A stretch of 64,000 bases of DNA from Psychroflexus salarius (lineage in GTDB: Bacteria; Bacteroidota; Bacteroidia; Flavobacteriales; Flavobacteriaceae). The notes beneath the pieces are model-generated. The model did no database searches and was not told where the DNA came from. It saw only the letters and a program-made list of their open reading frames with translations. The DNA lies in the NCBI RefSeq assembly GCF_900129035.1, contig NZ_FQTW01000002.1:1-64000 (forward strand), written 5' to 3'. A program made the position numbers and the translations under genes. This document shows, one piece after another, positions 10,623 to 52,936 of the stretch (positions are counted from its first letter, which is position 1; each line of letters begins with the position of its first letter).

Positions 10623-10624
10623 AA

Positions 10625-11575: not shown

Positions 11576-11586
11576 TAATTAATTAA

Positions 11587-17500: not shown

Positions 17501-17640
17501 ACGCGACCGGTTAATTGACCTGTTTCAGCCATTGGTTCTAAGGCTAAGTCGATAAACTTAGTATCTGGTGCCTGTGCAATAGAAGCACACACCGATAAAC
17601 AAGTCAGTATCAACGTTAAAACCAGTGATTTAACTTTCAT
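11587..17640 (-). CDS. Giant repetitive T9SS type B surface protein
   Basis: The 2017-residue protein has a signal peptide (about 1-22). It then has 18 copies of an SdrD-B/Cna-B-like module of about 100-107 residues, each starting with a pattern such as 'GHLYEDTNGNGTQDTGEPNL' and containing 'TDANGDW'. The Asp/Asn-rich 'DxNxNGxxDxGE' loops are typical calcium-binding sites of these beta-sandwich modules. The final 100 residues ('NAVSADGNGKNDYFKIEGI', 'VQIFNRQGNEVY', 'LPPGVYFYVLQY') form the gliding-motility-associated type B sorting domain recognised by the T9SS. The protein should form a long, calcium-stiffened surface stalk, for adhesion or SprB-like gliding. No separate ligand-binding domain is visible. 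Two families of internal DNA repeats are listed separately. Confidence 0.92.
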   Translation of the reverse strand: MKVKSLVLTLILTCLSVCASIAQAPDTKFIDLALEPMAETGQLTGRVYADTNGNGTQDAGEPGIQNVDVLIINSNNNGQTVQTDANGDWIADVIPGSALVFIDTTDLPVGFFQTEGVDPSVTTVVANTLVDTGKDGYTFVGQISGSLYSDVNGSGFQNAGEPNLPNVDVIIEDQFGNIQTVETDANGEWSAQVVVGDITVTIDVTDPDFPQCAFQTEGTNPSTHNIPVNTNVFSEIDGFFESAEIFGLVYNDANGNGTQDAGEAGIPGADVLVTFSSGFQTTLITDANGEYDVRVPQGSTTIEVVETDADFPTGAVQTQGTNPTTFDAICGETYNEIDGFQELGTLEGHVYLDENGSSFQDAGEPNLPNVDVIIEDVFGNIQTVETDANGDWSVVLPAGTAISTIDVTDPDFPECAFQTEGTNPTTSTIVANETISEIDGFFESAEIFGLVYNDANGNGTQDAGEAGIPGADVLVTFSSGFQTTIITDANGEYDVRVPQGSTTIEVVETDADFPTGTVQTQGTNPTTFDAVCGETYNEIDGFQELGTLEGHVYLDVNGSSFQNAGEPDLPNVDVIIEDVFGNIQTVETDANGDWSVVLPAGTVISTIDVTDPDFPECAFQTEGTNPTTSTIVANETISEIDGFFESAEIFGLVYNDANGNGTQDAGEAGIPGADVLVTFSSGFQTTIITDANGEYDVRVPQGSTTIEVVETDADFPTGTVQTQGTNPTTFDAICGETYNEVDGFIVPDDEVGVLNGHLYEDTNGNGTQDAGEPNLVSIDVEITDVNGDITIVETDANGDWSIELPIGPAISDIDQSDVDFPLDAIQTEGTDPTTTNVLASQSILSDNDGFFINTNPSTVFGHLYLDANGSGFQNATELDLPNIDVIVTDAFGNITVVETDANGDYVIDLPPGDVTLEIDLNDPDFPNCAFQTEGTNPTTLNLAPDEVITDINGFFESAEIFGLVYNDTNANGTQDTGESGIPGVDVLVTFSSGFQTTLITDANGEYDLRVPQGSTTIEVVETDADFPSGAIQLEGTNPSTFDAICGETYNEIDGFIIPNDEVGILTGHLYEDTNGNGTQDTGEPNLANIDIEITDINGDITIVATDANGDWSIELPIGDAISDIDEADPDFPVLAIQTEGTDPSTTTVLQDQTILSDNDGFFVPDETVSAQVNGHLYEDTNANGTQDAGEPDLVNIDVEVTDDFGNQQTVATDASGDWLATVTAGNITSDIDEADVDFPAGFVQTEGTDPSTTFAPPAVNTFTENDGFTDPTVLEVGILTGHLYEDTNGNGTQDTGEPNLANIDIEITDINGDITIVATDANGDWSIELPIGDAISDIDEADLDFPALAIQTEGTDPSTTTVLQDQTILSDNDGFFVPDETVSAQVNGHLYEDTNANGTQDAGEPDLVNIDVEVTDDFGNQQTVATDASGDWLATVTAGNIISDIDEADVDFPVGFVQTEGTDPSTTFAPPAVNTFTENDGFTDPTVLEVGILTGHLYEDTNGNGTQDTGEPNLANIDIEITDINGDITIVTTDANGDWSIELPIGDAISDIDEADPDFPALAIQTEGTDPSTTTVLQDQTILSDNDGFFVPDETVSAQVNGHLYEDTNGNGTQDTGEPDLANIDVELTDDFGNQQTVATDASGDWLATVTAGNITSDIDEADVDFPAGFVQTEGTDPSTTFAPPAVNTFTENDGFTDPTVLEVGILTGHLYEDTNGNGTQDTGEPNLANIDIEITDINGDITIVTTDANGDWSIELPIGDAISDIDEADPDFPALAIQTEGTDPSTTTVLQDQTILSDNDGFFVPDETVSAQVNGHLYEDTNGNGTQDTGEPDLANIDVELTDDFGNQQTVATDASGDWLATVTAGNITSDIDEADVDFPAGFVQTEGTDPSTTFAPPAVNTFTENDGFTNENIDDGLIIYNAVSADGNGKNDYFKIEGIDNFPQNTVQIFNRQGNEVYNASGYNNASIRFEGKSDGAITIQKGDLLPPGVYFYVLQYVNDQGDTKKQKGYLYLNN
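11909..14460 (-). repeat. Four tandem 642-bp coding repeats
   Basis: The same sequence recurs with an exact 642-base period: landmarks at 11909, 12551, 13193 and 13835, the fourth unit ending near 14460. Each unit encodes 214 residues, i.e. two SdrD-B modules. The units differ by only a few substitutions: Ala/Val in 'VDFPAGF' versus 'VDFPVGF', and 'DLANIDVELTDD' versus 'DLVNIDVEVTDD'. The two units nearest the C terminus look identical at protein level. Because 642 is divisible by 3, gain or loss of units keeps the frame. Confidence 0.92.
15412..16960 (-). repeat. Second tandem repeat family, 606-bp period
   Basis: Landmark bases recur at 15699, 16305 and 16911, exactly 606 bases apart. Each period encodes 202 residues, again two modules ('FGLVYNDANGNGTQDAGE' followed by 'EGHVYLD'). 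Similarity between units is very high but they differ clearly from the 642-bp family. The gene therefore contains two separate amplifications, with older, more diverged modules between (14461-15411) and before them. Confidence 0.88.
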
Positions 17641-26549: not shown

Positions 26550-26557
26550 TATATTTG
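26550..26557 (+). promoter_or_regulatory. Promoter -7 box of metK
   Basis: TATATTTG places the transcription start at about 26562, exactly at the first base-paired positions of the riboswitch. A TTTTG at 26531-26535 may act as the -33 element, although the 14-base spacing is short. Confidence 0.55.
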
Positions 26558-26559
26558 CA

Positions 26560-26622
26560 TCGAGGAAAGATTTGAACTGCTTGCAACCTCTAAAAATGCT
26601 AAACTCAGTACGCTTTTAGATG
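26560..26622 (+). ncRNA. SAM-sensing riboswitch (SAM-I-like, Bacteroidota form)
   Basis: The metK leader contains GAGGAAAGATTTGAACTG, then GCTTGCAACCTC, then AAAAATGCTAAA. The GCAACC and TGCTAA blocks are the conserved core of the SAM-I (S-box) aptamer. GAGG (26562-26565) pairs with CCTC (26587-26590). The rest follows the compact form found upstream of methionine genes in flavobacteria. No terminator hairpin with a T run follows, so control is more likely at translation. TTGTTTT (26632-26638) and AAAACAA (26656-26662) next to the start codon could pair. Repression of SAM synthetase by its product is the expected logic. Confidence 0.75.
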
Positions 26623-28102: not shown

Positions 28103-30787
28103 CTAAAGCTTATAACTGATACTTAATAAAAACGTGCGTGGTTGTATAAAAGTTCTGCGGTCTATGGCTGTAAATTCTGATAACGAATTTTCACGTCTAA
28201 AATCGATATCAAACAAATTTGTAGCACTTAACTCAAAAGCCCACGGAGACGACTCTTTATTGTAGTATAATGAAGCATCAGCGAGCTCAAAACGGTTGCT
28301 ATTATTAGTGGTATTGTTTTTAAAATATGTGTAGTTGTAATTGAAATTGAAAATAAAATCGGTCCAAAAATCATATTCAAGCTCAAGGTCTGGTGACCAG
28401 CGTGTAAATTTGTTTTTAAGGTTAGTAGAATTAAGTTCACTAAAACTATGGCGCATGTTAAGCGTCAAGTTAGGTAAATCATCAAAACGGGTTCGAACAC
28501 GAACATTATAGGCGTATGAATTAGATTGATAATCGATGACTGATTGATTAATAATCCTGGAGTAGTTAGACCAATTGGCATTACCACTTAGGCTAAAACT
28601 AAAGTCAGGAATACGCTTAGTTATATTTCCAGATAATAAAAAGCGTTCTTCTGGCAAGTCGGTAAAAATACTGGTAACCACTTGGTCGATGCCTTCAATT
28701 TCAGTTTGGTTTCTAATACTTGATTCGCGGTAATTATAATTAGCACTTAAATTATAATTAAGCCCTTTAAACAGGCTAAAACTTGAATAAAACAAACGTA
28801 AACTGTTATAAATTTGGTTTTCTAAATTAGCGTTACCTTGGTAAAGTTGATTAAAATTTGTAAGTCTTAAGCGGTTTGCAAAATTATTAACATTACTGAA
28901 GTTAGAACGTCTATTGTACTCAAGCTTCAGTTTTTCTGAATTATTAAATTCATATTCTACAAAGAGCTCTGGCAACCAGACGCCTTGAGTTTTATTGGCG
29001 ATTTCGGTTTGGTATTGTTGCGCTTTCCAGTCGAATAGCTGATAAACAATTCCTGGACGTAAAACTAATTTTCCGATTTGAGTTTTATATTGAAACCCTG
29101 CGTAAGGCGTGCTTAAACTGAAGTCTAATCGGTTATTGAAGTTGGCATTTTGAAAACTTTGACGATTGCCGTTGTTTAAAATTTGCTCATCTAAGGTATT
29201 ATAATCAGATTGAAATAAACGAAAACCCGCTTTAGGGTAAACATGATGAAAATCGGCCAACACCCAATAATGCTTAGCGTTTAACTTGACTGAATTTAAA
29301 CGGTTATAAACATCTTGATTGAGGTTATAAGTTTCATCTTCATTAACCAACGGAATTAAATCGCTAAAAATAGCCTGATTAAAATCCCACAAACGATTGG
29401 TGTTTTGCTCCTTATGGCTTAAAGTAGCTTCTACTTTTGTGGTATGTTTATATGAAAACTGCTTATTAAGATTAAACACCTGAGAAACTTCAACTTGGTC
29501 TGGCTTTGCTAAAGTATTAACAAACTCAGTACTGTTGTTGATAGTGGAGTTCAAATTGGTTAATTGATTACCTTCATTATATTTCACTGTGGTATTAGCG
29601 CGTAAATCGATGGTATTAATATCACTGTAACGCAACTTAATTTTGTTAATACTAAAAAGCAAACGCTGCTGCGTAGTGAGGTCTCTAAACTCGTTGGCTT
29701 GATTACCGGTTTGGTAGGCAATGTCTTGCTGATTGAGCTGATCTTGCTTGCTTTTGTTAAAAATACTGTAAGCATCGAGATTGGTTTTAGCACCTAAGCG
29801 TTGTGAAATACTTCCTGCCACAAAATCGTTTTTATTGTAAACGAAATCTGTATTTTGAAGAAATTGTGCAAAATCGTCTCGGTACAAGCTAAAATAAGCC
29901 GACGGATCTTCTAGGCTTAGGCCAATGCCGCCTTCAAAATCGATATAATCTTGAACGGTAAAGGATTTTTGCCCGATGTTATTAACATCAGCAATGACGT
30001 TAATAGCGGTGTTTGGGCTATAATAAAAGAGTTTAGGATGAAACAGAAAGCGGTCTTCTACACCACCACCAGCTTGAATATCGCCAAAAGCAAACTTCTT
30101 TTTACCTTCTTTAAGTTTAATGTTTAATGCCAGTTGGTCGCTATCTTCCAGGCCTTTTAAAAAAGCTACATCGCTGTAATTATCTAAAGCTTCAACCTCG
30201 TCGACAGCATCGGCAGGAATGTTGTTGACGCCTAATTTTTCATCACCCGTAAAAAAAGTTTTACCATCGACCATAAGTTTGGTAACAGGTTTTCCGTTAA
30301 CGGTAACATTACCAGCCTTATCGACCTCTAGGCCAGGCAATTTTTTTAAAATATCACGCAGTTTACGTTCTTCGCCGGTTTTAAATTGGTCGGTGCGGTA
30401 AGTAATGGTATCTTCTTTAACCACGACAGCCATTTCTTGTTGGATAATGACTTCTTCTAAGCTGGTAGTGCTGGGCTGCATTTGGTAGTTTTTTTCAAGA
30501 TCGGCTGAAAGCTGAATGGTATCGTTAACTTTTTTAAAGCCCAAATGGGTAATCTCGATTAAATAAGACGTGCTATCGGCTAAATTGAGCTTGTATTGGC
30601 CTTTGGTACTGCTAATGCTAAAGGTAATACCCGCATCAGGATTATTTAAAGGAGAAGCTATCACGTTAGTATTGGGTAAAGCTTGCTGTAAACTATCGGT
30701 AATTTGACCTGTGAGTTGGTGAGATTGGGCTAAACTGAGTTGAAAACTAAGAAATAAACAAAAGAATAGGAGATTGGTTTTTGGCAT
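28103..30787 (-). CDS. TonB-receptor-like outer-membrane beta-barrel protein
   Basis: The 894-residue protein has a signal peptide (ending 'QLSLAQ'), a carboxypeptidase-regulatory-like domain (about 24-105, 'LTGQITDSLQQALPNTNVIA'), a plug-like domain (about 125-225, 'RKLRDILKKLPGLEVDKAGN' and 'KLMVDGKTFFTGD') and a C-terminal barrel of about 650 residues ending in 'FLLSISYKL'. The TonB box is not clear, so energy coupling is uncertain. This barrel type is often found beside GLPGLI proteins. Here it is the last gene of the unit that begins with a secreted peptide (31809) and a GLPGLI gene (31506). I infer that it moves, receives or displays a partner of these small proteins. Confidence 0.85.
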   Translation of the reverse strand: MPKTNLLFFCLFLSFQLSLAQSHQLTGQITDSLQQALPNTNVIASPLNNPDAGITFSISSTKGQYKLNLADSTSYLIEITHLGFKKVNDTIQLSADLEKNYQMQPSTTSLEEVIIQQEMAVVVKEDTITYRTDQFKTGEERKLRDILKKLPGLEVDKAGNVTVNGKPVTKLMVDGKTFFTGDEKLGVNNIPADAVDEVEALDNYSDVAFLKGLEDSDQLALNIKLKEGKKKFAFGDIQAGGGVEDRFLFHPKLFYYSPNTAINVIADVNNIGQKSFTVQDYIDFEGGIGLSLEDPSAYFSLYRDDFAQFLQNTDFVYNKNDFVAGSISQRLGAKTNLDAYSIFNKSKQDQLNQQDIAYQTGNQANEFRDLTTQQRLLFSINKIKLRYSDINTIDLRANTTVKYNEGNQLTNLNSTINNSTEFVNTLAKPDQVEVSQVFNLNKQFSYKHTTKVEATLSHKEQNTNRLWDFNQAIFSDLIPLVNEDETYNLNQDVYNRLNSVKLNAKHYWVLADFHHVYPKAGFRLFQSDYNTLDEQILNNGNRQSFQNANFNNRLDFSLSTPYAGFQYKTQIGKLVLRPGIVYQLFDWKAQQYQTEIANKTQGVWLPELFVEYEFNNSEKLKLEYNRRSNFSNVNNFANRLRLTNFNQLYQGNANLENQIYNSLRLFYSSFSLFKGLNYNLSANYNYRESSIRNQTEIEGIDQVVTSIFTDLPEERFLLSGNITKRIPDFSFSLSGNANWSNYSRIINQSVIDYQSNSYAYNVRVRTRFDDLPNLTLNMRHSFSELNSTNLKNKFTRWSPDLELEYDFWTDFIFNFNYNYTYFKNNTTNNSNRFELADASLYYNKESSPWAFELSATNLFDIDFRRENSLSEFTAIDRRTFIQPRTFLLSISYKL

Positions 30788-30795
30788 TGAGTTAT

Positions 30796-31506
30796 TTAGG
30801 GTTTTTGAAATAATGCATTAGCTGCTTTAGATACTGTTTTTTGGTAGGCTTCAAAACTGATAATCTCTTGATTTTTAGGCATAAGCTTTATAGCTTCGGT
30901 TGTTGGTTCGATAGACTTTAGCTGAATTATAATCGTCTCGTTAATAACTACTTTAACCACCAGACCTGGTAACCCAATATATTTTTTAGGACCGATATTT
31001 AATGGTATATCTTTGGTGTACCAAAGTTTAACATTATCATCTTTATTTTCGGCTAGATAGCATTTATAACCATTGATTAAAACAGGTTGATTATTAATTA
31101 GTTTAAAATCTTTGGGTTGAAATTTAACATAAAATGTTTTTGAGTTTATACTTTTTTTAAAAACATAATTATCATTTTTTAAGTCTATGTAGTAAAATTC
31201 AGACTTTTGAAATAATAGGTTATTTATGTTTCGTAAAATCTCACTAGTAGCATCAGTAGATAAAGTCTTTTTTTTGTAACTGAAGGCTTTGCTAGAATTA
31301 GCAATAATAAAAAAATCTATTGGACGTGAATTTTCAAGCATTTTTTTAAAATAGGAAGCACTAGATTTTAGATTATTATTCTCGTTAAGACGTTTATACA
31401 ATACATCTTTATCTTGAGAGATGCTATAAGTAATTTTATAGTTTTGTGCTTGATTGAAATTTACACAAAACATAAATAAAATCACTAAAAAAAGTTTTTC
31501 TTTCAT
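30796..31506 (-). CDS. GLPGLI family protein G1
   Basis: The 236-residue secreted protein has a signal peptide ending 'NFNQAQ'. The diagnostic parts of the GLPGLI family (TIGR01200/PF09697, function unknown) are all there: 'INGYKCYLAE' (Cys149), 'LWYTKDIPLNIGP' and 'KYIGLPGLVVKV' (motif at 178-182). The start is ATG at 31506, because the ten extra codons from 31536 would precede a complete signal peptide. It lies 57 bases after peptide P1 and eight bases before the receptor gene, so it links the peptide with the outer-membrane protein. Confidence 0.88.
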   Translation of the reverse strand: MKEKLFLVILFMFCVNFNQAQNYKITYSISQDKDVLYKRLNENNNLKSSASYFKKMLENSRPIDFFIIANSSKAFSYKKKTLSTDATSEILRNINNLLFQKSEFYYIDLKNDNYVFKKSINSKTFYVKFQPKDFKLINNQPVLINGYKCYLAENKDDNVKLWYTKDIPLNIGPKKYIGLPGLVVKVVINETIIIQLKSIEPTTEAIKLMPKNQEIISFEAYQKTVSKAANALFQKP

Positions 31507-31563
31507 AATAACAAAGTAATAATGGTGCTCAAGCATAATAACTTAAGAACCATAAATTTAAGA

Positions 31564-31809
31564 TTAATCTGCTAAACAACTTTCATAAACTGCATTATGA
31601 TAAGCAACATACAGGTCGTTGTTTTCGCTGCTGCCAGAAGCTTCTTCACCGAATACAAAATGTGCAAAATGATAAGTTGCTAATCTTGCTTGACGATTAC
31701 AATCTGTTGGGTTGCCTTCTTCCTGAATAGTGGCTTGTTTTGAAGTTGAAAAACTACTTAAACTTAAGGTCATCGCACTTAAAGCGATGATAGATAATAC
31801 TTTTTTCAT
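31564..31809 (-). CDS. Small secreted Cys-bracketed peptide P1
   Basis: The 81-residue precursor starts with the signal peptide 'MKKVLSIIALSAMTLSLSSF', shared nearly unchanged by P2, P4 and P5. A short acidic linker leads to 'TDC', then 40 residues and a second Cys in 'YESCLAD'. The span between the cysteines is predicted as two helices. One disulfide would close it into a helical hairpin. No family is recognised. It is the first gene of the unit P1-G1-receptor and lies downstream of repeat copy A. Confidence 0.75.
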   Translation of the reverse strand: MKKVLSIIALSAMTLSLSSFSTSKQATIQEEGNPTDCNRQARLATYHFAHFVFGEEASGSSENNDLYVAYHNAVYESCLAD

Positions 31810-31881
31810 GGTATTATATTTTAAAAATTAAATGTCAGTTTTTCATCATAACGGATGGTGTTTTCAGCACAAAGGCTGTAA

Positions 31882-31908
31882 TTGGCTTCATGAAAATTCT
31901 TATCTTTG
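31882..31908 (+). promoter_or_regulatory. Divergent promoter of small RNA A
   Basis: TTG at 31882-31884, a 16-base gap and TATCTTTG at 31901-31908 form the best promoter in the repeat. It points away from the P1 gene. The same sequence is kept in copies B and C. Confidence 0.7.
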
Positions 31909-31913
31909 CATTG

Positions 31914-31985
31914 CAAGCGAGATGTGATTTTTCATGTCTTAAATTGGCGGAACGCTTTTCATCCCGAAAAGCGTTTCCTTTTTTT
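31914..31985 (+). ncRNA. Candidate small RNA, copy A
   Basis: About 70 bases lie between the promoter's expected start and an intrinsic terminator: stem AACGCTTTT/AAAAGCGTT (31951-31959 and 31967-31975), loop CATCCCG, then a 7-T run (31979-31985). There is no reading frame of note (the ATG is followed at once by TGA). The unit is repeated three times with the stem preserved. Function is unknown; it could act on the divergent peptide operons, but I see no clear complementarity. Confidence 0.6.
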
Positions 31986-32350
31986 AAAAATTAGAAGAAC
32001 GCATTTGTTTTTATTTAACTATTTGATGTAAAGCTAAAAAAAACAACAATATAAGCTTAATTCTAAATGTTAAATTTTATATTCTTTTCAAAATAAGTTT
32101 AATTATTTACAATATAAATAATTTATTAAGGTCTTTTCTGTTGGTTTGATATTTTTACATGCTTTTGTAGATGTTTTAATTTGAATGTTATAATGACTTC
32201 AATAGAACTCACATTAAGGTATAACTAACAATAAATATAAGAAAGAGGAAGTTTTTCATTTATGTAATTTATCGGTGTAAGGATTGGCTTAAATATTCCT
32301 TTCTTGTCATACTTTTATTGACATTAGGAAATTCAATTTTATGTTTTTTG

Positions 32351-33061
32351 TTACTTGATATCTTGAAGTAGTAGGTTATTTTTTTTCAATTCTTTACTAT
32401 ATTCACTTTCAGTCAAAAACCTGTAATCGTTTTTTTCAATAATTGGTTTGCCTTCCTTTTTTCTTTTAATGTTTGTTGCTAAATAGGTAATTAAACCGTT
32501 TTTGACCTCAGCCTTTAAAATTAAACCTGGCAAATTATTAAACGTGTATGGACCATAAGGAAAAGGGATTTTTTTTGTGAACCACGCATATATTTTTCCT
32601 TTTTGATTAAGAATTAGTTCAGCTTTATAGCAAGTAAAACCTAAAATCTCTTCTGTTTCGTTTAAGATTTTCCACTTATTTTTATAGATAACATTAGTTT
32701 TACTAAGCAAAGTAGAAGTATAATAAGTTCTTTTTTTCATATTATCAAAATAGTAAATTGACTCTCCTCCAGCGTGTCCCTCAAAATAATTAAATTTTGG
32801 TTTAGCATCGCTTCGTAGTTGTTCTCGAACAGCATATTTAGCAGCCTTAGCGTTAAAAACCAGCTTAGATTGGACTTCTTTAAAGGTCTCAGCTTGTTTG
32901 GAAATGAAAAATTTTGTGCTTTTATCTTTCATAGTTTTAAGAGATTTATTCAAAATCTCATTGTCTAGCTGTAAGATATAATCAACCTCATAAACACCAT
33001 TAGTTTGAGCATAAGAAAAGTAGCAAAATATTAAGCTTATAAATAATATTAATTTCTTCAT
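32351..33061 (-). CDS. GLPGLI family protein G2 (no peptide partner)
   Basis: The 236-residue protein has a signal peptide ending 'YFSYAQ' and the family core 'ILGFTCYKAEL', 'AWFTKKIPFPYGP' and 'FNNLPGLILKAEV', so the first Gly of the motif is Asn. It lies 11 bases after G3 with no room for a peptide gene between, and it is the last gene of the P4-to-G2 transcription unit. No terminator is evident after it. Function is unknown, as for the family. Confidence 0.85.
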   Translation of the reverse strand: MKKLILFISLIFCYFSYAQTNGVYEVDYILQLDNEILNKSLKTMKDKSTKFFISKQAETFKEVQSKLVFNAKAAKYAVREQLRSDAKPKFNYFEGHAGGESIYYFDNMKKRTYYTSTLLSKTNVIYKNKWKILNETEEILGFTCYKAELILNQKGKIYAWFTKKIPFPYGPYTFNNLPGLILKAEVKNGLITYLATNIKRKKEGKPIIEKNDYRFLTESEYSKELKKNNLLLQDIK

Positions 33062-33072
33062 ATCTAAAACTA

Positions 33073-33804
33073 TTATTTTTTTGAAGGATCAAACCCAAAA
33101 CGCTTCATTTTATTTTTTACTAGTTTCAAAAATTCGTCTTCTGTATAATACTGTTCTACTTTAGGCTGCTTGATTGTTTTAATGGAATTAAAACTTATTT
33201 TCTTCGCTTCTAAGTAGCGATGCCGGTCTTGATAGGCTAAAATCAACCCTGGCAAGCCATTATAATACATCGGTCCTGAATTAATGTTAATTTTTGGAGA
33301 AAACCATACCTTAATATTTTTCTTAATACCATCTGCTGAAAAACTAGCTGTGGCTAAATAACATTTATAGCCTAAAATTGTTTTAATCTTTTGATTATCA
33401 ATACGCCAATTAAATTTTTTGAAATGGTCTTTGATAACTATACCTGAAAAGGATCTACTGTGTAAAAATTTATAATAGTACTCATCTTGTTGATTTTGAT
33501 AATACACCGTACTGGCATCGGCATGTAATTGAAGGCTAGGTAATAATCCAGGATTTAAATCACTATCCATTATGGGTTTTGTTTTAAATCTTGAAAGGCC
33601 TTGATTAACGATGAGTTGATAGGTTATTCGGTCTTCATAAGGTTTTAAACTTTTAACAATAGATTTTACAAATTCTGCATTTGGAGCCTGACTTTTAATT
33701 GGCTTCAAAGTTAAAGAATAGTTAACCTCAATTGCATTAGTTTGCCCCACCATTGTGGTGAGGCTTACTAAGCAAAACATAAAAGTGATTATTATAAACT
33801 TCAT
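33073..33804 (-). CDS. GLPGLI family protein G3 (no peptide partner)
   Basis: The 243-residue protein has a signal peptide ending 'TTMVGQ' and the core 'ILGYKCYLATA', 'VWFSPKININSGP' and 'YNGLPGLILAYQ'. The intergenic distance to G4 is only 19 bases, so like G2 it has no peptide gene of its own. It may be a duplicate of a neighbouring GLPGLI gene that lost its peptide, or may share one. Its C terminus 'MKRFGFDPSKK' is basic. Confidence 0.85.
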   Translation of the reverse strand: MKFIIITFMFCLVSLTTMVGQTNAIEVNYSLTLKPIKSQAPNAEFVKSIVKSLKPYEDRITYQLIVNQGLSRFKTKPIMDSDLNPGLLPSLQLHADASTVYYQNQQDEYYYKFLHSRSFSGIVIKDHFKKFNWRIDNQKIKTILGYKCYLATASFSADGIKKNIKVWFSPKININSGPMYYNGLPGLILAYQDRHRYLEAKKISFNSIKTIKQPKVEQYYTEDEFLKLVKNKMKRFGFDPSKK

Positions 33805-33823
33805 TGTTAGTTAGTTTAAGTTT

Positions 33824-34516
33824 TTAGCGTGATAATTTTCTATAATCCTCGATCTTAATTGATTCGCCTTTAGTTGGTTTTTGTATATTCTGGTCGTTAA
33901 CTCGTTTAATTTTAGTTGACTCTAATACAAATCCAAAGTTCCATTTATATTCTAACCTTAAAATTAAACCAGGCAGCCCTCTAAACCCAATCGGGCCAAA
34001 CGGTAGGTTAAGTTTTGGAGTAAACCAAGCAACAATCTCTCGCTTTTGATTTTGATTAGTACCGTCACCTTCATTATATCTTAATACTGCTTTTTTGCAT
34101 TTAAAACCAAGTATCTCTTGAGTCATATTTGTAATATGCCAAGATAAGTCAGAAAAAGCAGATTCAATTTTATAAAGTTTTCCGAAAGCATTTTTTTGAG
34201 TAATAAAAATATTGTTAGGTTGATTTCCATAATAAATTGCATCTGCTTTAGCAAAACCTAAAATCATTTTGAATAATTCAGGGTTAGAAGCATCATTAAT
34301 CATTGACTGATTATACTGATATGAAGATTCACCGGCGTTTGCCTTTAATACAAAGTCTAAAGTTGGTAATACCTGTTTTGCTTTCAAAGCCAGTTTGCCG
34401 TAAAACGACTTATTAGATGGTGCTTTTTGATAATTAGTCTTATATGCATAAGTCACTTCAACACCTTGCTGTGCAAGGCATTGAAGTGATATTAAAAATA
34501 TGATTACAAATCGCAT
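33824..34516 (-). CDS. GLPGLI family protein G4 (partner of P2)
   Basis: The 230-residue protein has a signal peptide ending 'LQCLAQ' and the core 'ILGFKCKKAVL', 'AWFTPKLNLPFGP' and 'FRGLPGLILRLEY'. Between the core Cys and the WF motif there is a charged insertion ('NEGDGTNQNQKRE'). The start ATG lies one base after the stop of the P2 gene, so translation of the two is coupled. It is followed by the partnerless G3 and G2. Confidence 0.87.
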   Translation of the reverse strand: MRFVIIFLISLQCLAQQGVEVTYAYKTNYQKAPSNKSFYGKLALKAKQVLPTLDFVLKANAGESSYQYNQSMINDASNPELFKMILGFAKADAIYYGNQPNNIFITQKNAFGKLYKIESAFSDLSWHITNMTQEILGFKCKKAVLRYNEGDGTNQNQKREIVAWFTPKLNLPFGPIGFRGLPGLILRLEYKWNFGFVLESTKIKRVNDQNIQKPTKGESIKIEDYRKLSR

Positions 34517-34517
34517 G

Positions 34518-34754
34518 TTAAAACTTTATCATTAATAACATATAATCTATTCCTGAATCACAAGCTGTATAAACAAAGTTGGTCACACTATAAACTTCAC
34601 TTGGGGATGCTCCCATTTCTTCTGCATTAGAGCCGGCTTCCCATGCTTCAGACATACAGTCTCTTTCTTGAGAGTCATCAGCACTGCTACTATTAAAACT
34701 ACTTAAACTTAAGGTCATCGCACTTAAAGCGATGATAGAACATACTTTTTTCAT
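34518..34754 (-). CDS. Small secreted Cys-bracketed peptide P2
   Basis: This 78-residue precursor has the common signal peptide ('MKKVCSIIALSAMTLSLSSF'). The mature part begins with an acidic stretch and 'RDC', then exactly 31 residues with a central 'GASPSE' turn, then Cys in 'YTACDSG', and a hydrophobic tail 'DYMLLMIKF' not seen in the other peptides. Only the signal-peptide part resembles the 490-bp repeat; the upstream DNA is different. It sits one base before G4. Confidence 0.72.
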   Translation of the reverse strand: MKKVCSIIALSAMTLSLSSFNSSSADDSQERDCMSEAWEAGSNAEEMGASPSEVYSVTNFVYTACDSGIDYMLLMIKF

Positions 34755-34807
34755 GGTATAATTTAGGTGTGGTTAAATATACTATAAACTTCAATTAACT
34801 GTAAACA

Positions 34808-35533
34808 CTACATCTTATCTCTGTAATTTTCTTGAATAGCTTTTATTGACTCCTCGTAAGTTGTTAACGATTGATTTTTTCTTAATTGTATTACTTGAAC
34901 TGTTTCATCAGTTTGCTCGATTTTTGCTGCTTTAATTTGTGCCGTGCTATGTTTTAATTCAAGAACAGCTCCAGGTAAGTCTCCAAAAACACTTGGGCTC
35001 GCTTTGAAATTTAATTCAGGACTAAACCAAACATAATTGGGTATAAAGACGCTTTTATTAAATTGTTTTTTGGTTTTTAAATCCGGTACAGCCTTAAAGC
35101 ATTTATAGCCTTCAATTATTTTAGTTTCTTTAGTGATTTGCCATGTTAAATACTTATCATTTATCACTTTAACCAGTTTGTCAGGATTAACTACGTTTTT
35201 GGCTAAACTTATGGCCTCATTATAATATATAGGATAAATAGGACTCACCGCAACTTTGGTTGATAATACATCATCAAACCTGAAGTTATCGCTTAACATT
35301 TGTTGGTTAAAACTTGCGTAATAGCGTTTACCGTCTGAAACAAGTATTAACCGTAAAGTTTTACTGATTTGTTGCTGTTTTTTAAGTCCCTCTTCAAAAT
35401 ATTGTTTTATGTATGCTTCTGTTTCCTCAGGATACTCAAGTTTATCAAATTTGAATTGATAAGTAATTTTATAGTTTTGCGCAATGCTAATATTTAAGCA
35501 CAATAAACATAGAATAGACAGAAAGATTTTCAT
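34808..35533 (-). CDS. GLPGLI family protein G5 (partner of P3)
   Basis: The 241-residue protein has a signal peptide ending 'NISIAQ' and the core 'IEGYKCFKAVP', 'VWFSPELNFKASP' and 'FGDLPGAVLELKH'. The variant 'DLPGA' with 'KASP' before it, in place of GLPGL with GP, is shared only with G6, so the two form a subtype. It follows P3 by 58 bases. The space contains GCCCACTAAAAAAAGTCTAGTAGGC, a hairpin-like sequence that could be an attenuator between peptide and partner. Confidence 0.85.
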   Translation of the reverse strand: MKIFLSILCLLCLNISIAQNYKITYQFKFDKLEYPEETEAYIKQYFEEGLKKQQQISKTLRLILVSDGKRYYASFNQQMLSDNFRFDDVLSTKVAVSPIYPIYYNEAISLAKNVVNPDKLVKVINDKYLTWQITKETKIIEGYKCFKAVPDLKTKKQFNKSVFIPNYVWFSPELNFKASPSVFGDLPGAVLELKHSTAQIKAAKIEQTDETVQVIQLRKNQSLTTYEESIKAIQENYRDKM

Positions 35534-35542
35534 TGTTAAAAA

Positions 35543-35577
35543 ATTGATAAGCCCACTAAAAAAAGTCTAGTAGGCTT
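35543..35577 (-). promoter_or_regulatory. Hairpin between peptide P3 and G5
   Basis: In the 58-base gap, AAGCCCACTA (35550-35559) can pair with TAGTAGGCTT (35569-35578, one bulge), with an A-rich loop. Neither side is followed by a long T run, so a processing or stability element or weak attenuator is more likely than a full terminator. Confidence 0.4.
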
Positions 35578-35591
35578 AAGTTAATTATACT

Positions 35592-35810
35592 TTACTCACC
35601 TATGTTTGGTGCTGTAATTTGACCAGTTGAGTTGTCAAGGTTACAAGAACTTCTCCATCTACTCGACCTAATAAATGCCTGAGCTGGTGTAGCGCCTTGA
35701 TAAATAGCGAAATCATAAATTCTAGAGGCTTCAGCTTCGCAATCTCTATCTTGTTCTACTGCGTTAAAGTTAAAGCTTATAAATGCTGTAATAATTAATA
35801 ATGTTTTCAT
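35592..35810 (-). CDS. Small secreted Cys-bracketed peptide P3
   Basis: The 72-residue precursor has a different, shorter signal peptide ('MKTLLIITAFISFNFNA'). Then 'EQDRDC', 31 residues with 'YDFAIYQGATPAQ' in the middle, and Cys in 'WRSSCNLDN'. The C-x31-C spacing equals that of P2 and P4, and 'YDFAI' plus 'GA' is shared with P4, although between the Cys residues it is otherwise different and more basic ('FIRSSRWR'). The ATG lies two bases past the stop of G6. Confidence 0.72.
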   Translation of the reverse strand: MKTLLIITAFISFNFNAVEQDRDCEAEASRIYDFAIYQGATPAQAFIRSSRWRSSCNLDNSTGQITAPNIGE

Positions 35811-35812
35811 GG

Positions 35813-36571
35813 TTATCGTTTTATTTTTGATTTTATTTTTTTGTAATGGGCTTTCATAAGTTTTTTAAACTGCTTGTAATTAACTATTTTGTAAGTATCT
35901 AAAGGCTCAAATTCTAAATTCTTTGTCACCTCTTTCACCGAAATAGCACGAATTGTTGCTCTACTTGTTTTATATTCAAGTATAGCACCAGGTAAATCAG
36001 CAAATACGGCTGGTGAAGCCCTGAAATTAAGAACTGGAGCAAACCAAACTTCTTCAGGAATGTATCCATTAGTTATAGACCGGCCAAGACCTTTTTTAAG
36101 TTTAGGCCTAGCTTTATAGCACATTTTGCCCAAAATGATTTTTTTATCTTTAGTAATTTCCCAATCAAAATAAGCTTGAGACTTCGAAGCTACTACAAGA
36201 CTATCTAAAATAATAGAATATCCATAAGCAGTTGAATTGTGATAATCTATTTTAGCAAATGCCGAAATATCTTTCATAGCAAACATTAAATCGTTTTGTG
36301 TTAACCCATCGATTGGCATTAACCTATTAAAGCGCAATTGGTAAGAATTTTCTTGAGGCTTAGCTATAACCTTAATCTTAAGCGCATCTGACATTAAAGC
36401 ATTTTTTTTATTAATTTGATTAATAAATGCTTGCTGTGCTGCACTCAGATTATTTTTACTATCACTAGCGCCTTTATAGGGTTTTAAATCTGCCTTATAG
36501 ATTAACTCATAGTTTTGGCTGCAGGTTATTTGAACAAATGCTAAAACTAAAATAATTACATAATACTTCAT
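35813..36571 (-). CDS. GLPGLI family protein G6 (partner of P4)
   Basis: The 252-residue protein has a signal peptide ending 'QITCSQ' and the core 'ILGKMCYKARP', 'VWFAPVLNFRASP' and 'FADLPGAILEYK'. It shares the 'DLPGA' subtype with G5, as their peptides P4 and P3 share 'YDFAI'. A Cys just before the mature end of the signal ('ITCSQ') could also be a lipobox-like site, but the +1 context is poor. It begins one base after the P4 stop and ends two bases before P3. Confidence 0.86.
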   Translation of the reverse strand: MKYYVIILVLAFVQITCSQNYELIYKADLKPYKGASDSKNNLSAAQQAFINQINKKNALMSDALKIKVIAKPQENSYQLRFNRLMPIDGLTQNDLMFAMKDISAFAKIDYHNSTAYGYSIILDSLVVASKSQAYFDWEITKDKKIILGKMCYKARPKLKKGLGRSITNGYIPEEVWFAPVLNFRASPAVFADLPGAILEYKTSRATIRAISVKEVTKNLEFEPLDTYKIVNYKQFKKLMKAHYKKIKSKIKR

Positions 36572-36572
36572 A

Positions 36573-36833
36573 TTACCTGAATGGTGCAGCTGCTATTATC
36601 GCATTTAAAAAATCTGATCTACCTCCATCGATTACGCAATCAGCCCAATATTGACCTGCTTGATATTCAGCAACATCTTCACTAGCTCCGTTGGAAATTG
36701 CAAAGTCATATAATTCATTGTAAGATTCATCACAATCTTCTTGAGCTACAATTTGATTTGTCGTGTGAGTATTAAAACTACTTAAAATTAAGGTCATCAC
36801 ACTTAAAGCGATGATAGATAATACTTTTTTCAT
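36573..36833 (-). CDS. Small secreted Cys-bracketed peptide P4
   Basis: This 86-residue precursor has the common signal peptide (with 'SVMTLILSSF'), an extended linker, 'QEDC', 31 residues containing 'YDFAISNGASEDV', Cys in 'YWADCVIDGG' and a tail 'FLNAIIAAAPFR'. The start is ATG at 36833: an in-frame upstream ATG at 36914 exists but that extension is interrupted in repeat copy A, so it is not conserved. It is the first gene of the longest unit (P4-G6-P3-G5-P2-G4-G3-G2). Confidence 0.75.
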   Translation of the reverse strand: MKKVLSIIALSVMTLILSSFNTHTTNQIVAQEDCDESYNELYDFAISNGASEDVAEYQAGQYWADCVIDGGRSDFLNAIIAAAPFR

Positions 36834-37252
36834 GGTATTATATTTTAAAAAATTTAAAGTCAGTTTTTCATCATAACGGATGGTTTTCAGCACTAAGTCT
36901 GTAATTGGCTTCATGAAAATTCTTATCTTTGCATTGCAAGCGAGATGTGATTTTTCATGTCTTAAACTGGCGGAGCGCTTTTCATCCCGAAAAGCGTTTC
37001 CTTTTTTTAAAAATTAGAAGAACGCATTTGTGTTTTATTTAACTATTTGATATAAAACTAAAAAAAAACAATATGAGCTTATTTTTAAATGTTAAATTTT
37101 GTATTTCATTGAAAATAAGCATAATTGTTTACAATATTTATAATTTATTAGGGTCTTTTATGTTGGTTTGATATTTTTATGTGCCTTTGTTAATGTTTTA
37201 ATTTGAATGTTATAAATGACTTCAATAGAACCCACTTTAAGGTATAACTAAG
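36772..37252. repeat. Roughly 490-bp direct repeat, copy B
   Basis: This has the same block structure as copy A: signal-peptide codons of P4, 5' region, small-RNA unit, AT-rich arm ending AAGGTATAACTA. It diverges from A and C inside the P4 signal-peptide region and after 37252. The remaining 70 bases to the stop of G7 hold nothing recognisable. Confidence 0.9.
36905..37008 (+). ncRNA. Candidate small RNA, copy B, with promoter
   Basis: The promoter is TTG (36905-36907) and TATCTTTG (36924-36931); the RNA would span about 36938-37008. Relative to copy A the terminator stem has an A-to-G change on the left arm (36975), turning an A-T pair into a G-T pair, so pairing is kept. The loop CATCCCG and the T run (37002-37008) are unchanged. 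Confidence 0.6.
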
Positions 37253-37321
37253 AATAAAAATAAATGGGCTTTGGCATAGGTTAAGATTAGAAAAATAAGT
37301 TTAAAAATTTGATGAATTAAA

Positions 37322-38014
37322 TTACTGTCTTATTCTATCCATAAATGCAGCATATTGTTTACGGGCAAACTCTTCATCTGTTAACTTTATTCCTTTATCT
37401 AAATCTATTTTTAGAGCTTTGTTCGAACTTTTGTGTTTTATCTTTTTAGCTATAATATAAAAGCTGCCGCGCTGAGATTCCAAAACAAGCCCTGGCAGCC
37501 CACCAAAATCTGCAGGACCAAATGGCAAAGGTATTTTTGGTGTAAACCACACAATAGCCTTTAGTGTTCTATCCTTTTTTAGAACATAATTATACTCTTT
37601 TCGAGTGCCTAAAGCTTTGTAGCACTTGTAACCTAATATTTGTTTGGTTTCTTTAAGGATTTCCCAATTCCAATTAGATTTACTTTTATCAATCAGATAT
37701 CGTTTACCATCTTGCTCAGTAATCAATATATTAGTTTTGTCTTGACTATTTTTATAATATACACCTTTAATGTTTGCCATAGAAATGAGTCTTCTATTTT
37801 TAACTTGCTGATCTAAGCCTAAACGCTTAATTTTTTTAAAAATAGATTGCTTATGGTCAAAAACAAGCGTGTAACTTAAGTTAGCAATCTGTTTTGGCGA
37901 ATGTTTGGACTCATCATCCGCTAATTTAAACGCACTAATATATTCAACCTTTGTTATATCTTGAGCATATAGCTTTGCAGCTACTAAAAGCAAGAATATT
38001 ATTTTTAATTTCAT
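37322..38014 (-). CDS. GLPGLI family protein G7 (partner of P5)
   Basis: The 230-residue protein has a signal peptide ending 'AAKLYAQ' and the core 'ILGYKCYKALG', 'VWFTPKIPLPFGP' and 'FGGLPGLVLES'. It belongs with G1-G4 in the classic GLPGL(I/V) subtype. It follows P5 by 60 bases. That gap contains AGTGCTGTAG and CTACAACACTT (38031-38060), an inverted repeat similar in position to the hairpin between P3 and G5. P5 and G7 form the shortest unit. Confidence 0.87.
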   Translation of the reverse strand: MKLKIIFLLLVAAKLYAQDITKVEYISAFKLADDESKHSPKQIANLSYTLVFDHKQSIFKKIKRLGLDQQVKNRRLISMANIKGVYYKNSQDKTNILITEQDGKRYLIDKSKSNWNWEILKETKQILGYKCYKALGTRKEYNYVLKKDRTLKAIVWFTPKIPLPFGPADFGGLPGLVLESQRGSFYIIAKKIKHKSSNKALKIDLDKGIKLTDEEFARKQYAAFMDRIRQ

Positions 38015-38027
38015 ATCGTGACTTTAA

Positions 38028-38060
38028 ACAAAGTGCTGTAGAAAATAACTCTACAACACT
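38028..38060 (-). promoter_or_regulatory. Hairpin between peptide P5 and G7
   Basis: AAAGTGCTGTAGA (38030-38042) pairs imperfectly with CTCTACAACACTTTT (38050-38064) around a short AT loop. It occupies the same place as the P3-G5 hairpin and could set the ratio of peptide to GLPGLI protein by partial termination or RNA protection. Confidence 0.4.
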
Positions 38061-38074
38061 TTTAAATTAACCTA

Positions 38075-38320
38075 TTACATAAAAACTGGATCTAAAACTT
38101 CACCATCATCCATACAAGAATCATAGTAAAATAATAAACCATCTAAATAAGCGCCTCTATCTCTAATAAAACCGTACATTTCTTGCTCGTCAACCATTGC
38201 GGCCATTGCGTAATCTAAACAATCACCTTCTGCTTCAATAGCGGCTTGTTTTGAAGTTGAAAAACTACTTAAACTTAAGGTCATCGCACTTAAAGCGATG
38301 ATAGATAATACTTTTTTCAT
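38075..38320 (-). CDS. Small secreted Cys-bracketed peptide P5
   Basis: The 81-residue precursor's first 27 residues ('MKKVLSIIALSAMTLSLSSF' plus 'STSKQA') equal those of P1, and the DNA is near identical there. The mature part is then unrelated: 'EGDC', 34 residues with two Met-rich helices ('DYAMAAMVDEQEMYGF'), Cys in 'YYDSCMDDG' and an acidic tail. The abrupt change from identical to unrelated sequence marks the edge of repeat copy C. It is the first gene of the P5-G7 unit. Confidence 0.75.
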   Translation of the reverse strand: MKKVLSIIALSAMTLSLSSFSTSKQAAIEAEGDCLDYAMAAMVDEQEMYGFIRDRGAYLDGLLFYYDSCMDDGEVLDPVFM

Positions 38321-38730
38321 GGTATTATATTTTAAAAAATTTAAAGTCAGTTTTTCATCATAACGGATGGTTTTCAACACAAAGACTGTAATTGGCTTCA
38401 TGAAAATTCTTATCTTTGCAATGCAAGCGAGATGTGATTTTTCATGTCTTAAACTGGCGGAGCGCTTTTCATCCCGAAAAGCGTTTCCTTTTTTTAAAAA
38501 TTAGAAGAACGCATTTTTTTTTTATTATATCCTCAAATTAAAAAACAACAATATGAGCTTATTTTTAAATGTTAAATTTTGTATTTCATTGAAAATAAGC
38601 ATAATTTTTTACAATATTTATAATTTATTAGGGTCTTTTATGTTGGTTTGATATTTTTATGTGCTTTTGTTAATGTTTTAATTTTAATGTTATAATGACT
38701 TCAATAGAACTCACATTAAGGTATAACTAA
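38243..38730. repeat. Roughly 490-bp direct repeat, copy C
   Basis: This is the most upstream copy. It runs from inside the P5 coding region to AAGGTATAACTA at 38719-38730 and is slightly shorter than A and B because of a deletion after the small-RNA terminator. It must contain the promoter of the P5-G7 unit, because a terminator for the gene beyond it lies at 38757-38790. Confidence 0.9.
38392..38495 (+). ncRNA. Candidate small RNA, copy C, with promoter
   Basis: The promoter is TTG (38392-38394) and TATCTTTG (38411-38418); the RNA would span about 38425-38495. It is nearly identical to copy B, including the G-T pair in the stem, loop CATCCCG and T run at 38489-38495. Confidence 0.6.
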
Positions 38731-38822: not shown

Positions 38823-39347
38823 TCATCGCACGCGATCAACAAGCGAAGGTGTTCCACAGATTAGAGTCGACATGGGTCCAGTTCTTGTTACCGAAAAGGT
38901 CTCGCCTGGTTTAATTTCATTAGCAAGTTCTGCAGCTCTTTTCTTTGTACAACTTTTTGTGAAGACACCTGAACATGAAGCATACTCAGTCAATCCTTCT
39001 GGACATGACCTACTTTTTGATAAATCTTCTGGTGGTGTATGTACGCTTTGTTTAACAACAAGCTTGTTATCAGTGTAACTAATTAACCACTTTACATTTC
39101 CAACTTCATTTGGCTTAGCAAATAAATCTTTACTAAACATGTAAGCATCTAATTTATTAAGAAGTTGATTAGTGACTTCTTTTTTTGTTCCTTCAAATGT
39201 AAATTCTTCATTCAAAAAGTCAAACTCTAATTCCGTAAAATCTAAAATTTGATTTTCTTCAGATTCATTTAAATTGTCTTGTGTACAGCTTGTTATAAGT
39301 AAGCCCACAAACAAAGTCAAAACTAATTTTAATTTAAAAACTTTCAT
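38823..39347 (-). CDS. Lipoprotein of unknown function with Cys-rich end
   Basis: The 174-residue protein has a lipobox 'LLITSC' (Cys21), an acidic middle part, and a C-terminal half with five cysteines ('SRSCPEGLTEYASCSGVFT', 'KSCTKK' and 'STLICGTP'). I do not recognise a family. The cysteines suggest a disulfide-stabilised extracellular domain. It stands alone between a terminator (38757-38790) and a 488-base gap, and just upstream of the peptide/GLPGLI array; whether it belongs functionally to the array is unknown. Confidence 0.6.
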   Translation of the reverse strand: MKVFKLKLVLTLFVGLLITSCTQDNLNESEENQILDFTELEFDFLNEEFTFEGTKKEVTNQLLNKLDAYMFSKDLFAKPNEVGNVKWLISYTDNKLVVKQSVHTPPEDLSKSRSCPEGLTEYASCSGVFTKSCTKKRAAELANEIKPGETFSVTRTGPMSTLICGTPSLVDRVR

Positions 39348-50920: not shown

Positions 50921-51418
50921 TTAATTTAAATGTAGTGTTTTAGTTTCTAAATCTTTTTCTAAAATAAAACTTTGCCTAAAGTTTTGGGCTGTAAAATGAA
51001 TTAAATTTTTTTGTGTCTTAAACAAATCTATTAAAATTTCATCTTTGATTGTAATTTTTGAAAATGGTTTAATGTCATTAATTTCTATAAATAGAAACAC
51101 CATATCATCTTTATATTTAAAACCAAGATAGTTGAGTTTTGTAGATTTACCATCAACTTCAACTGAGAACTTTTGATTTATGTAACGTTCGATGTATGTT
51201 TCGGTTTCTTCGATTTCATTGCCTTCAATTAAAACAAAAGGTTTTTGGTAGCGTTTTTTGAGTACATTTTCAAAATCGTCTACAAACACACGAGAAATAA
51301 TTTGAATACTATTTTGGTCTTCAATGTAGTCAACATCTGTAACACTTAAGTAGTACTCGTGTTTTGAGGCTGAAAAACTCATTAGAAAACTTAAAATAAA
51401 AGCTAAGTTGATGTTCAT
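50921..51418 (-). CDS. DUF6702 family secreted protein
   Basis: The 165-residue protein has a signal peptide (about 1-18). Its mature N terminus 'KHEYYLSVTDVDYIEDQNSI' followed by 'QIISRVFVDDFENVLKKRY' is the signature of DUF6702. Members are found next to M1 peptidases in many flavobacteria; their function is not known. It overlaps the upstream gene by four bases and precedes the M1 gene by six, so the partnership is probably functional. Confidence 0.8.
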   Translation of the reverse strand: MNINLAFILSFLMSFSASKHEYYLSVTDVDYIEDQNSIQIISRVFVDDFENVLKKRYQKPFVLIEGNEIEETETYIERYINQKFSVEVDGKSTKLNYLGFKYKDDMVFLFIEINDIKPFSKITIKDEILIDLFKTQKNLIHFTAQNFRQSFILEKDLETKTLHLN

Positions 51419-52176
51419 TGATTAAACTTTAGGCGTTTATAGTTTTTTGCTTTTTCTTGAATTGAATCATAAACAGCCAATTTATTGTTTCGAAGTGTTT
51501 TAAGTAAACTTAAATCTTCGGCACAATAATACAGAAAATCTTCAACATAAAGCGAATCAATTTCTAAACTCTCAACAAGGTATTTTTGTGTGAAATAGCC
51601 TTTTAGTTTAGCTTGACGTCTAGATATGATATTATTCTGCCTTAATCGCTTTAATTCGGCTAAATCACCATTTAAGGCCATAATGATATAATCTAAAGGG
51701 ATTGAAGTTGCCGGACCAATGCTAAACCGGCTTACACGCTTAAGTTCACGTTGAGGATAACTTAAACGCCGCGGTTTACTAAAACCTGTTATGCTTTTTT
51801 GATTAAAAGTGGTGTTTTTAATTTGTTGAGCATCTTTTTCTATGAATCCCGTTAAATCATATTGACTTAATACGACTTCTGGCAATTGATTAATTTCAAT
51901 TTTTAAAGGAATTTCAACGACTTGATGAAAATCGGATGCTTTGATAATTCGGTAAGCAAACTCATGCTTTATTGATAAAAAAACCACACTATCATTCACT
52001 TCAGCCGGAATACTAAATCGACCATTTTTTCTTGTAGTTGTGCCTTGCTTGTTACTAATATTAACAATATTGATTTGGTAATTATCTAATGAATCAGCTA
52101 TAATTTCACCTTCAAAAATTTGTGCATAATTGAAGCCAAAACTTAAAAATAAGAGCAAGCCAACACATTTATTCAT
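51415..52176 (-). CDS. Carboxypeptidase-regulatory-like protein, paralogue 3
   Basis: The 253-residue protein has a signal peptide (to about 18) and a CarboxypepD_reg-like beta-sandwich (about 19-100, 'FEGEIIADSLDNYQI' and 'QGTTTRKNGRFSIPAEVNDS'). A segment 'LPEVVLSQYDLTGFIEKD' follows, then a helical C-terminal half. The beginning resembles the N terminus of TonB receptors, without plug or barrel. It overlaps paralogue 2 by eight bases. The first 100 residues are nearly identical to those of paralogue 2, the rest is not. Confidence 0.8.
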   Translation of the reverse strand: MNKCVGLLLFLSFGFNYAQIFEGEIIADSLDNYQINIVNISNKQGTTTRKNGRFSIPAEVNDSVVFLSIKHEFAYRIIKASDFHQVVEIPLKIEINQLPEVVLSQYDLTGFIEKDAQQIKNTTFNQKSITGFSKPRRLSYPQRELKRVSRFSIGPATSIPLDYIIMALNGDLAELKRLRQNNIISRRQAKLKGYFTQKYLVESLEIDSLYVEDFLYYCAEDLSLLKTLRNNKLAVYDSIQEKAKNYKRLKFNQ

Positions 52177-52933: not shown

Positions 52934-52936
52934 CTA

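Follow-up and report, generated by a model that had tools for sequence, protein, structure and literature searches.

In the first 64,000 nucleotides (nt) of contig NZ_FQTW01000002.1 of Psychroflexus salarius (hereafter the window), we analysed a minus-strand locus at 28103–38320 in which the genes for five small secreted peptides (P1–P5) each stand directly 5′ of a gene for a GLPGLI-family protein (G), accompanied by two solo GLPGLI genes (G3 and G2) and a gene for a TonB-receptor-like outer-membrane barrel. This gene content had been proposed in a first-pass annotation of the DNA, and P1–P5, G1–G7 and the barrel were all confirmed as open reading frames (ORFs) at the expected place and strand. 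Comparisons across the genus indicate that P and G evolve and are swapped as matched pairs, like toxin and antidote genes. Because of this specific pairing, the exchange of pairs as units, the retention of solo partners and the scars of displacement, we read the array, with what we would call an even chance of being right, as a set of toxin/immunity-type cassettes in which each secreted P has a specific periplasmic G and all share one outer-membrane barrel.

The association of P with G was followed in two collections, with signal peptides called by a simple hydropathy rule. The genus set comprised 42 regions (L numbers below), chosen by matches to the RNA leader described below or to GLPGLI and hence enriched, with 86 GLPGLI ORFs and 43 adjacent P–G pairs; the order-wide set comprised 40 Flavobacteriales regions chosen by PF09697 alone. 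Five ORFs 5′ of G (one of them in L100), which were spurious, chimeric or too distant, were removed by hand before counting. A small secreted Cys-containing ORF lay at most 110 nt upstream of 41 of 84 GLPGLI genes in the genus regions, compared to 1 of 256 other genes. The flavobacterial search for short ORFs 5′ of GLPGLI genes, which the first-pass annotation had suggested, was borne out in the order-wide set at the same distance (12 of 56 GLPGLI genes against 1 of 120 others), both within the same family (6/30 versus 0/55) and in other families (6/26 versus 1/65). The peptide gene 5′ of GLPGLI genes is not due to chance. The expectation that such ORFs would be neither absent nor frameshifted beside homologous GLPGLI genes largely held, as P adjoins homologous G in many genomes, but the genus regions contain three broken P next to intact G, as well as many solo G.

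Covariation of P with its own G was measured in a set of 37 pairs, from which a pair was dropped only if both its P and its G were near-identical to another pair, and in a set of 35 pairs, from which near-identical G were removed, which hides the one clearly discordant pair; partial and non-partner tests used the latter. The similarity of mature P followed that of the adjacent G (r = 0.72, 37 distinct pairs), with none of 5000 permutations as high. Among the 35 pairs, the partial correlation was 0.72 for P and G given the signal peptide and 0.14 for signal peptide and G given P, and between-genome comparisons alone gave r = 0.76. When the partner was exchanged for the nearest other G in the locus, r was 0.09 instead of 0.73 (29 pairs). 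Nearest neighbours agreed in 16 of the 35 (permuted mean 1.0, maximum 9), and all 17 comparisons with a P similarity of at least 0.22 had a G similarity of at least 0.30, the 95th percentile being 0.21. The signal is carried by 18 of the 35 P, those for which a relative can be recognised, and for each of these the G ranks first or second. A given combination of P type and G type is also found behind unlike signal peptides (L017/L121, L097/L120 and window P3/L114). An organisation of constant export part, variable active part and dedicated neighbour, as first proposed, is backed by this genus-wide covariation, by the null result for non-partners and by the replacement seen in a sister species.

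In that sister species (G315, L094), the locus occupies the same site between metK and the kynureninase gene (gene names by eye). L094 and the window share 95% DNA identity from the region upstream of P4 to the signal sequence of P2, ending in mature P2, and the homology break lies just past the shared signal-peptide DNA. A pair P′–G′, whose relatives are the L112 pair, stands in L094 in place of P2–G4–G3–G2–P1–G1, and homology resumes at 93% from about the mature start of the barrel. Since the barrel gene thus remains constant although the P–G genes were replaced, we take it to be a shared gate rather than a specific receptor. Within the window, 32227–32371 (minus strand) holds a relic, the 3′ end of another GLPGLI gene followed by a barrel signal-peptide start, which aligns at 85% with L094 4158–4011, where G′ ends and the sister's barrel gene begins; together with the break, we read it as the scar of two successive cassette insertions. 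L094 further lacks P5–G7 and has a P4 that a stop within the signal sequence interrupts.

Solo G genes are related to paired ones. On a tree of 83 G of at least 200 amino acids (aa), the label paired or solo changed 23 times, with at least 15 changes forced by well-supported branches, compared to 27.7 when labels were shuffled. Solo G nest among paired G, such that G2 is sister to the G of P6 (L017_6305, same genome) and G3 to the paired L108_9463, both with 100/100 support. Separately, L102 (11540–12200, plus strand) holds a chimeric remnant with a GLPGLI-like start and a P-like end, followed by another G fragment, which is likely a recombination scar.

In the direction of transcription, the locus reads leader–P5–G7, leader–P4–G6–P3–G5–P2–G4–G3–G2 and leader–P1–G1–barrel. 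P5 (81 aa, 38075–38320), read from an inner ATG at which its leader stops, precedes G7 (37322–38014), and P4 (86 aa, 36573–36833) precedes the divergent G6 (35813–36571), a pair kept in L114. Then come P3 (72 aa, 35592–35810) with G5 (34808–35533), kept in both L094 and L114, and P2 (78 aa, 34518–34754) with G4 (33824–34516), the latter followed by the solo genes G3 (33073–33804) and G2 (32351–33061). P1 (81 aa, 31564–31809), whose leader stops at its ATG, is followed by G1 (30796–31506, with an alternative upstream ATG at 31536) and the barrel gene (894 aa, 28103–30787). One-base gaps, earlier attributed to some pairs, occur in P4–G6 and P2–G4 only; P1–G1, P3–G5 and P5–G7 are separated by 57–60 nt with a hairpin.

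All five P carry two Cys in the mature part, as the first-pass annotation had it, and the spacing of 28–42 residues given there was nearly right: 35 of the 43 genus P have exactly two Cys, 25–40 residues apart, and 42 have at least two. Mature P is acidic in 42 of the 43. By eye, the signal sequences of the window peptides are hydrophobic and about 20 aa long (about 15 in P3); the common signal sequence that had been ascribed to all of them is shared, at the DNA level, by P1, P2, P4 and P5, P3 having another one. Mature P2 was modelled as a two-helix hairpin (helices 13–26 and 31–47) with a predicted local distance difference test score (pLDDT) of ~90 in the helices and Cys at 13 and 45. A hairpin also lies within the signal-peptide coding DNA of P1, P2, P4 and P5 (31770–31790, 34715–34735, 36794–36814 and 38281–38301, minus strand), where part of the DNA conservation may reflect RNA structure. 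PADLOC gave no match for P1, P2, G1, G4 or the barrel.

The G proteins of the window are 230–252 aa long. All four that were run against TIGR01200 passed its cut-off of 50 bits (G1, 95.1; G2, 128.1; G4, 130.7; G7, 134.2). PF09697 (Porph_ging; cut-off 25) was exceeded by G1–G4 (G3, 37 bits) and G7 (34.8 bits), with G5 (23.1) and G6 (14) below it; G5 passes PF22252 (41 bits), and G6, which carries the motif DLPGA, is below both and was matched by a profile built with G6 itself. PF09697 matches occur in 26 of 59 sampled Flavobacteriales genomes, with up to 23 per genome. The G1 part of a joined P1–G1 AlphaFold2 (AF2) model (pLDDT mostly >90) found its best fold match in the N-terminal bowl domain of PNGase F-II (4r4z, 7zgn; Z ~15), which is nearest to G in fold and in sequence (E = 4e-9 for 4r4z and 9e-5 for 7zgn); in PNGase F-II, the bowl sits in a longer glycan-cutting enzyme, whereas G stands alone. 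Further matches were an uncharacterised Thermus protein (Z 9.9), VioE (9.1–9.6) and ependymin-related proteins (8.5–9.0). The half-barrels RseB/MucB and LolA resemble modelled G at Z about 6.4–8.6, a likeness of fold alone at 2–14% identity that VioE and the ependymin-related proteins equal or surpass (Z 8.5–9.6). RseB/MucB and LolA members bind anti-sigma peptides or lipoproteins, and the modelled half-barrel fold suggests that G may act by binding P in the periplasm. We found no function or peptide partner for GLPGLI proteins in the open PubMed Central (PMC) papers retrieved, no paper there that gives the family accessions, and no P–G pairing in the retrieved papers on flavobacterial or Psychroflexus bacteriocins or Chryseobacterium secreted peptides; the accessible parts of open PMC papers list GLPGLI genes, without function, among regulated genes in Riemerella and Porphyromonas.

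The ~400 nt upstream of P1, P4 and P5 are 89–91% identical, a point absent from the first-pass annotation, and the element recurs three times elsewhere in the genome. From these six copies, a covariance model of the ~200-nt leader (R1) was built on the P strand; the window copies lie on the minus strand at 38321–38526 (P5, 210.7 bits), 36834–37039 (P4, 210.5 bits) and 31810–32016 (P1, 214.6 bits). At E ≤ 0.1, R1 had matches in 18 of the 27 Psychroflexus genomes, the source genome among them; outside the genus, among 299 family genomes, it matched only once and weakly at E ≤ 0.01 (E = 0.006). When the upstream DNA itself was the query against the 299 family genomes, which include the source genome, all matches in other genomes were shorter than 95 bases. 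In 50 R1 matches at E ≤ 1e-3, 89.1% of cells pair compared to 81.2% when shuffled, and double-change pairs number 20 compared to 11.6 (0/500 shuffles as high), with sliding of the partners giving 45–56% pairing; these values come from an alignment fitted to the model, which favours it. Helix 2 of R1 is probably wrong (GU 17, AC 23). A secreted Cys ORF of 55–99 aa starts at −2 to +12 nt from the element end in 32 of the 50, and the next gene is GLPGLI in 30 of these 32; the remaining elements precede a lipoprotein or longer secreted protein (nine), a P-like ORF cut by the contig end (one) or none (eight, two of them broken P). At gathering score, Rfam yielded only a SAM-II riboswitch at 26556 in the window, the best match to the element in L018 being 31.7 bits against a required 45, and a relaxed threshold added nothing but chance matches resembling terminators, most of them on the other strand.

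The leader most likely runs on the strand of P. That the element is instead an antisense small RNA ending at the first hairpin, which concerns the element only and is compatible with every reading of the proteins, we regard as unlikely: the first hairpin and a T run do form a terminator on the opposite strand in all three window copies, and an alifold consensus computed unguided from 40 elements is also stronger there (−12.07 versus −1.18 on the P strand, where the alignment was poor), but in helices 1, 3, 4 and 6 of the model, itself built on the P strand, G–U pairs on that strand lie far above A–C, in most cases the element runs up to the start codon of P, and the motif TAnnTTYG occurs in 12 of 43 P-strand flanks (shuffled mean 6.7) as opposed to 2 on the other strand, with 10 of the 12 at −44 to −16 (from 44 of the 50 elements).

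Hairpins in the gaps between P and G are a second RNA feature of the cassettes. A strong hairpin is present in every one of the 23 distinct P–G gaps of 35–110 nt measured (mean z −5.1, all ≤ −2). Of the 16 control gaps, which separate a G from the gene after it, 2 hold one (mean z −0.33), as do 8 of 9 picked P–G gaps from other genera. Their sequences are unlike between pairs. In the window, they lie at 38015–38074 (P5–G7; E −17.9, z −5.0), 35534–35591 (P3–G5, terminator-like; E −16.4, z −4.3) and 31507–31563 (P1–G1; E −12.9, z −3.0), all on the minus strand. Gap hairpins occur in many bacteriocin operons, and here they may hold the expression of G below that of P.

The barrel scored just under the cut-off for CarbopepD_reg_2 (32.1 versus 32.2 bits) and below that for Plug (17.2 versus 23.9 bits). 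Across six barrels scanned, Plug reached 16–21 bits, CarbopepD_reg_2 was above cut-off in three, and PF14905 in L131 only. The same kind of barrel gene terminates several other loci of the genome: L017 (leader–P6, two GLPGLI genes and a barrel, with a leader-preceded 245-aa lipoprotein just before the locus), L019 (two Cys-rich secreted peptides, GLPGLI and a barrel), L018 (6430–7395, minus strand: leader, 58-aa lipoprotein, 178-aa protein and 56-aa membrane protein, then GLPGLI and a barrel) and L021, where GLPGLI and a barrel stand without a peptide; L020 is a lone GLPGLI gene on a short contig. The 178-aa protein of L018 has a Gly-rich, hydrophobic C-terminal half that looks bacteriocin-like by eye and a weak PADLOC match to LeoBC (E = 9e-5), and the arrangement of L091 looks related to that of L018. 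Just 5′ of the P5 leader in the window, a 174-aa lipoprotein with a Cys-rich C-terminus (38823–39347, minus strand) resembles, by eye, the leader-controlled lipoproteins of L017, L111 and L113.

Two known systems offer points of comparison. In the accessible parts of a report on Vibrio cholerae type VI secretion system (T6SS) arrays, effector–immunity pairs are exchanged as units and old effectors displaced, with immunity genes kept as solo arrays 3′ of the pairs (PMC5361080), the same history as that read here for P–G. The P–G locus differs in that no T6SS genes were seen at it, P are small signal-peptide-bearing peptides and G is modelled as a half-barrel; the P–G unit adds a structured leader and gap hairpins, and P are not known to be toxic. 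Bacteroidetocins, class IIf, are likewise small secreted Cys peptides of Bacteroidota, but as far as the accessible text describes them (PMC6671954), they have a 15–16-aa double-glycine leader and four Cys, are somewhat basic, come with an ABC transporter and a thiol oxidoreductase, and lack an identified immunity protein, whereas P are acidic, bear Sec-like signals, mostly contain two Cys and are paired with a dedicated gene. By eye, neither an ABC transporter/peptidase nor a thiol oxidoreductase was apparent among the ORFs of the locus, the flanking ORFs not having been family-searched.

As toxin/immunity-type cassettes, the array might work as follows. The leader RNA would control P production, and P would cross the inner membrane via its signal peptide and fold into a hairpin of two helices that a single disulfide closes, with the gap hairpin keeping P in excess over G. 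G would bind its cognate P alone in the periplasm, thereby protecting the producer or escorting P, and the barrel would be the shared gate for passage through the outer membrane. Cassettes would be exchanged by recombination via the shared leader and signal-peptide DNA, with old G genes persisting as solo genes, as in immunity gene arrays. In this scheme, we infer the binding and its periplasmic site, the disulfide, the excess of P, the passage through the barrel, the toxicity or export and the harm to competitors.

The pair is adjacent, specific, covarying and, with one clear discordance, exchanged together, and the solo genes and displacement scars favour toxin and immunity over its closest competitor, which the half-barrel fold would also allow. 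According to the latter, G is a dedicated LolA-like carrier that would maintain a single P in solution and deliver it to the barrel, from which P would be displayed or released. The role of P would then be other than that of a toxin, such as surface factor, inhibitor or scavenger. The modelled fold of G, which resembles the PNGase F-II bowl with RseB/MucB and LolA as further matches, would suit a carrier, as would the covariation of P and G and the adjacency of G and barrel genes in many loci; solo G, broken P beside intact G and displacement scars are hard to explain with it, and so is a barrel that stays unchanged when P and G are replaced. We consider such a carrier possible and distinctly less probable than toxin/immunity cassettes. 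A wider proposal, in which GLPGLI proteins form a large set of peptide-specific, LolA-type carriers passing secreted peptides to a TonB-type barrel as exit gate, and hence an undescribed outer-membrane peptide secretion or competition system of Flavobacteriales that is placed in Psychroflexus under a structured RNA leader, seems to us somewhat more doubtful still.

P could also covary with G merely as a co-travelling neighbour, with no interaction between them. Tight linkage and frequent recombination would allow this, and one G was indeed retained with a swapped P; yet the signal peptide, despite its physical link to mature P, shows little correlation with G when P is controlled for, the nearest non-partner G does not track P, and the gap hairpin recurs without sequence conservation, so that we hold mere linkage to be improbable. 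Slightly less probable again is a role in signalling, in which P would serve as a pheromone, G as the receptor specific to it in the periplasm and the barrel as an uptake gate, with solo G eavesdropping on neighbours. Specific pairing, a shared gate and solo partners would all fit such signalling, but no regulator is obvious by eye among the ORFs of the locus, and the N-terminal domain of the barrel is CarboxypepD_reg-like, with no signalling domain in Pfam scans.

Several observations weigh against the toxin/immunity reading. Purifying selection, whose absence at the signal and Cys positions the first-pass annotation would have taken as a refutation, is weak on mature P (pooled ratio of nonsynonymous to synonymous differences, pN/pS, of 0.70 in six pairs, the discordant one included). 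In the 35-pair set, no relative can be recognised for 17 P, whose closest P in the set barely informs on G, with scattered ranks. One pair is clearly discordant (L098_1087 versus L102_13705, with a similarity of 0.97 for G but 0.02 for P) and another more weakly so (L103 versus L101, 0.99 for G but 0.46 for P). L124 has an intact P before a barrel without a G, and another intact P has a G with no normal ATG start; therefore, the loss of P is not strictly one-way. Several small, all-solo G clades recur across genomes, so some G may not need a P; 44 of the 56 order-wide G have no detected peptide, such that the family is not only a partner of P, and a GLPGLI class of ~290 aa with the highest PF09697 scores mostly precedes a barrel without a peptide. 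On the structural side, G1 matched RseB/MucB (Z 7.2–8.6) and LolA (Z 6.4–8.1) at middling values over ~120–145 residues, and an AF2 chain joining P1 to G1, in which both parts fold (predicted template modelling score, pTM, 0.64), was uninformative on the interface.

A specific small secreted partner makes the function of GLPGLI proteins a testable question of binding. If P are toxins, they and their G would be a new bacteriocin and immunity repertoire in Bacteroidota, and the shared RNA leader would be a marker for finding further members in the genus.

Elsewhere in the window, the SAM-II riboswitch (26556–26612, plus strand) precedes an ORF that looks, by eye, like S-adenosylmethionine synthetase. 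At 8316–17640 (minus strand), a gene for a 2017-aa repeat protein is followed by PorP/SprF-like and OmpA-like ORFs, an arrangement that recalls, by eye, an adhesin of gliding or type IX secretion. At 51415–53698 (minus strand), three tandem genes encode secreted-looking proteins of ~253 aa that look paralogous by eye.

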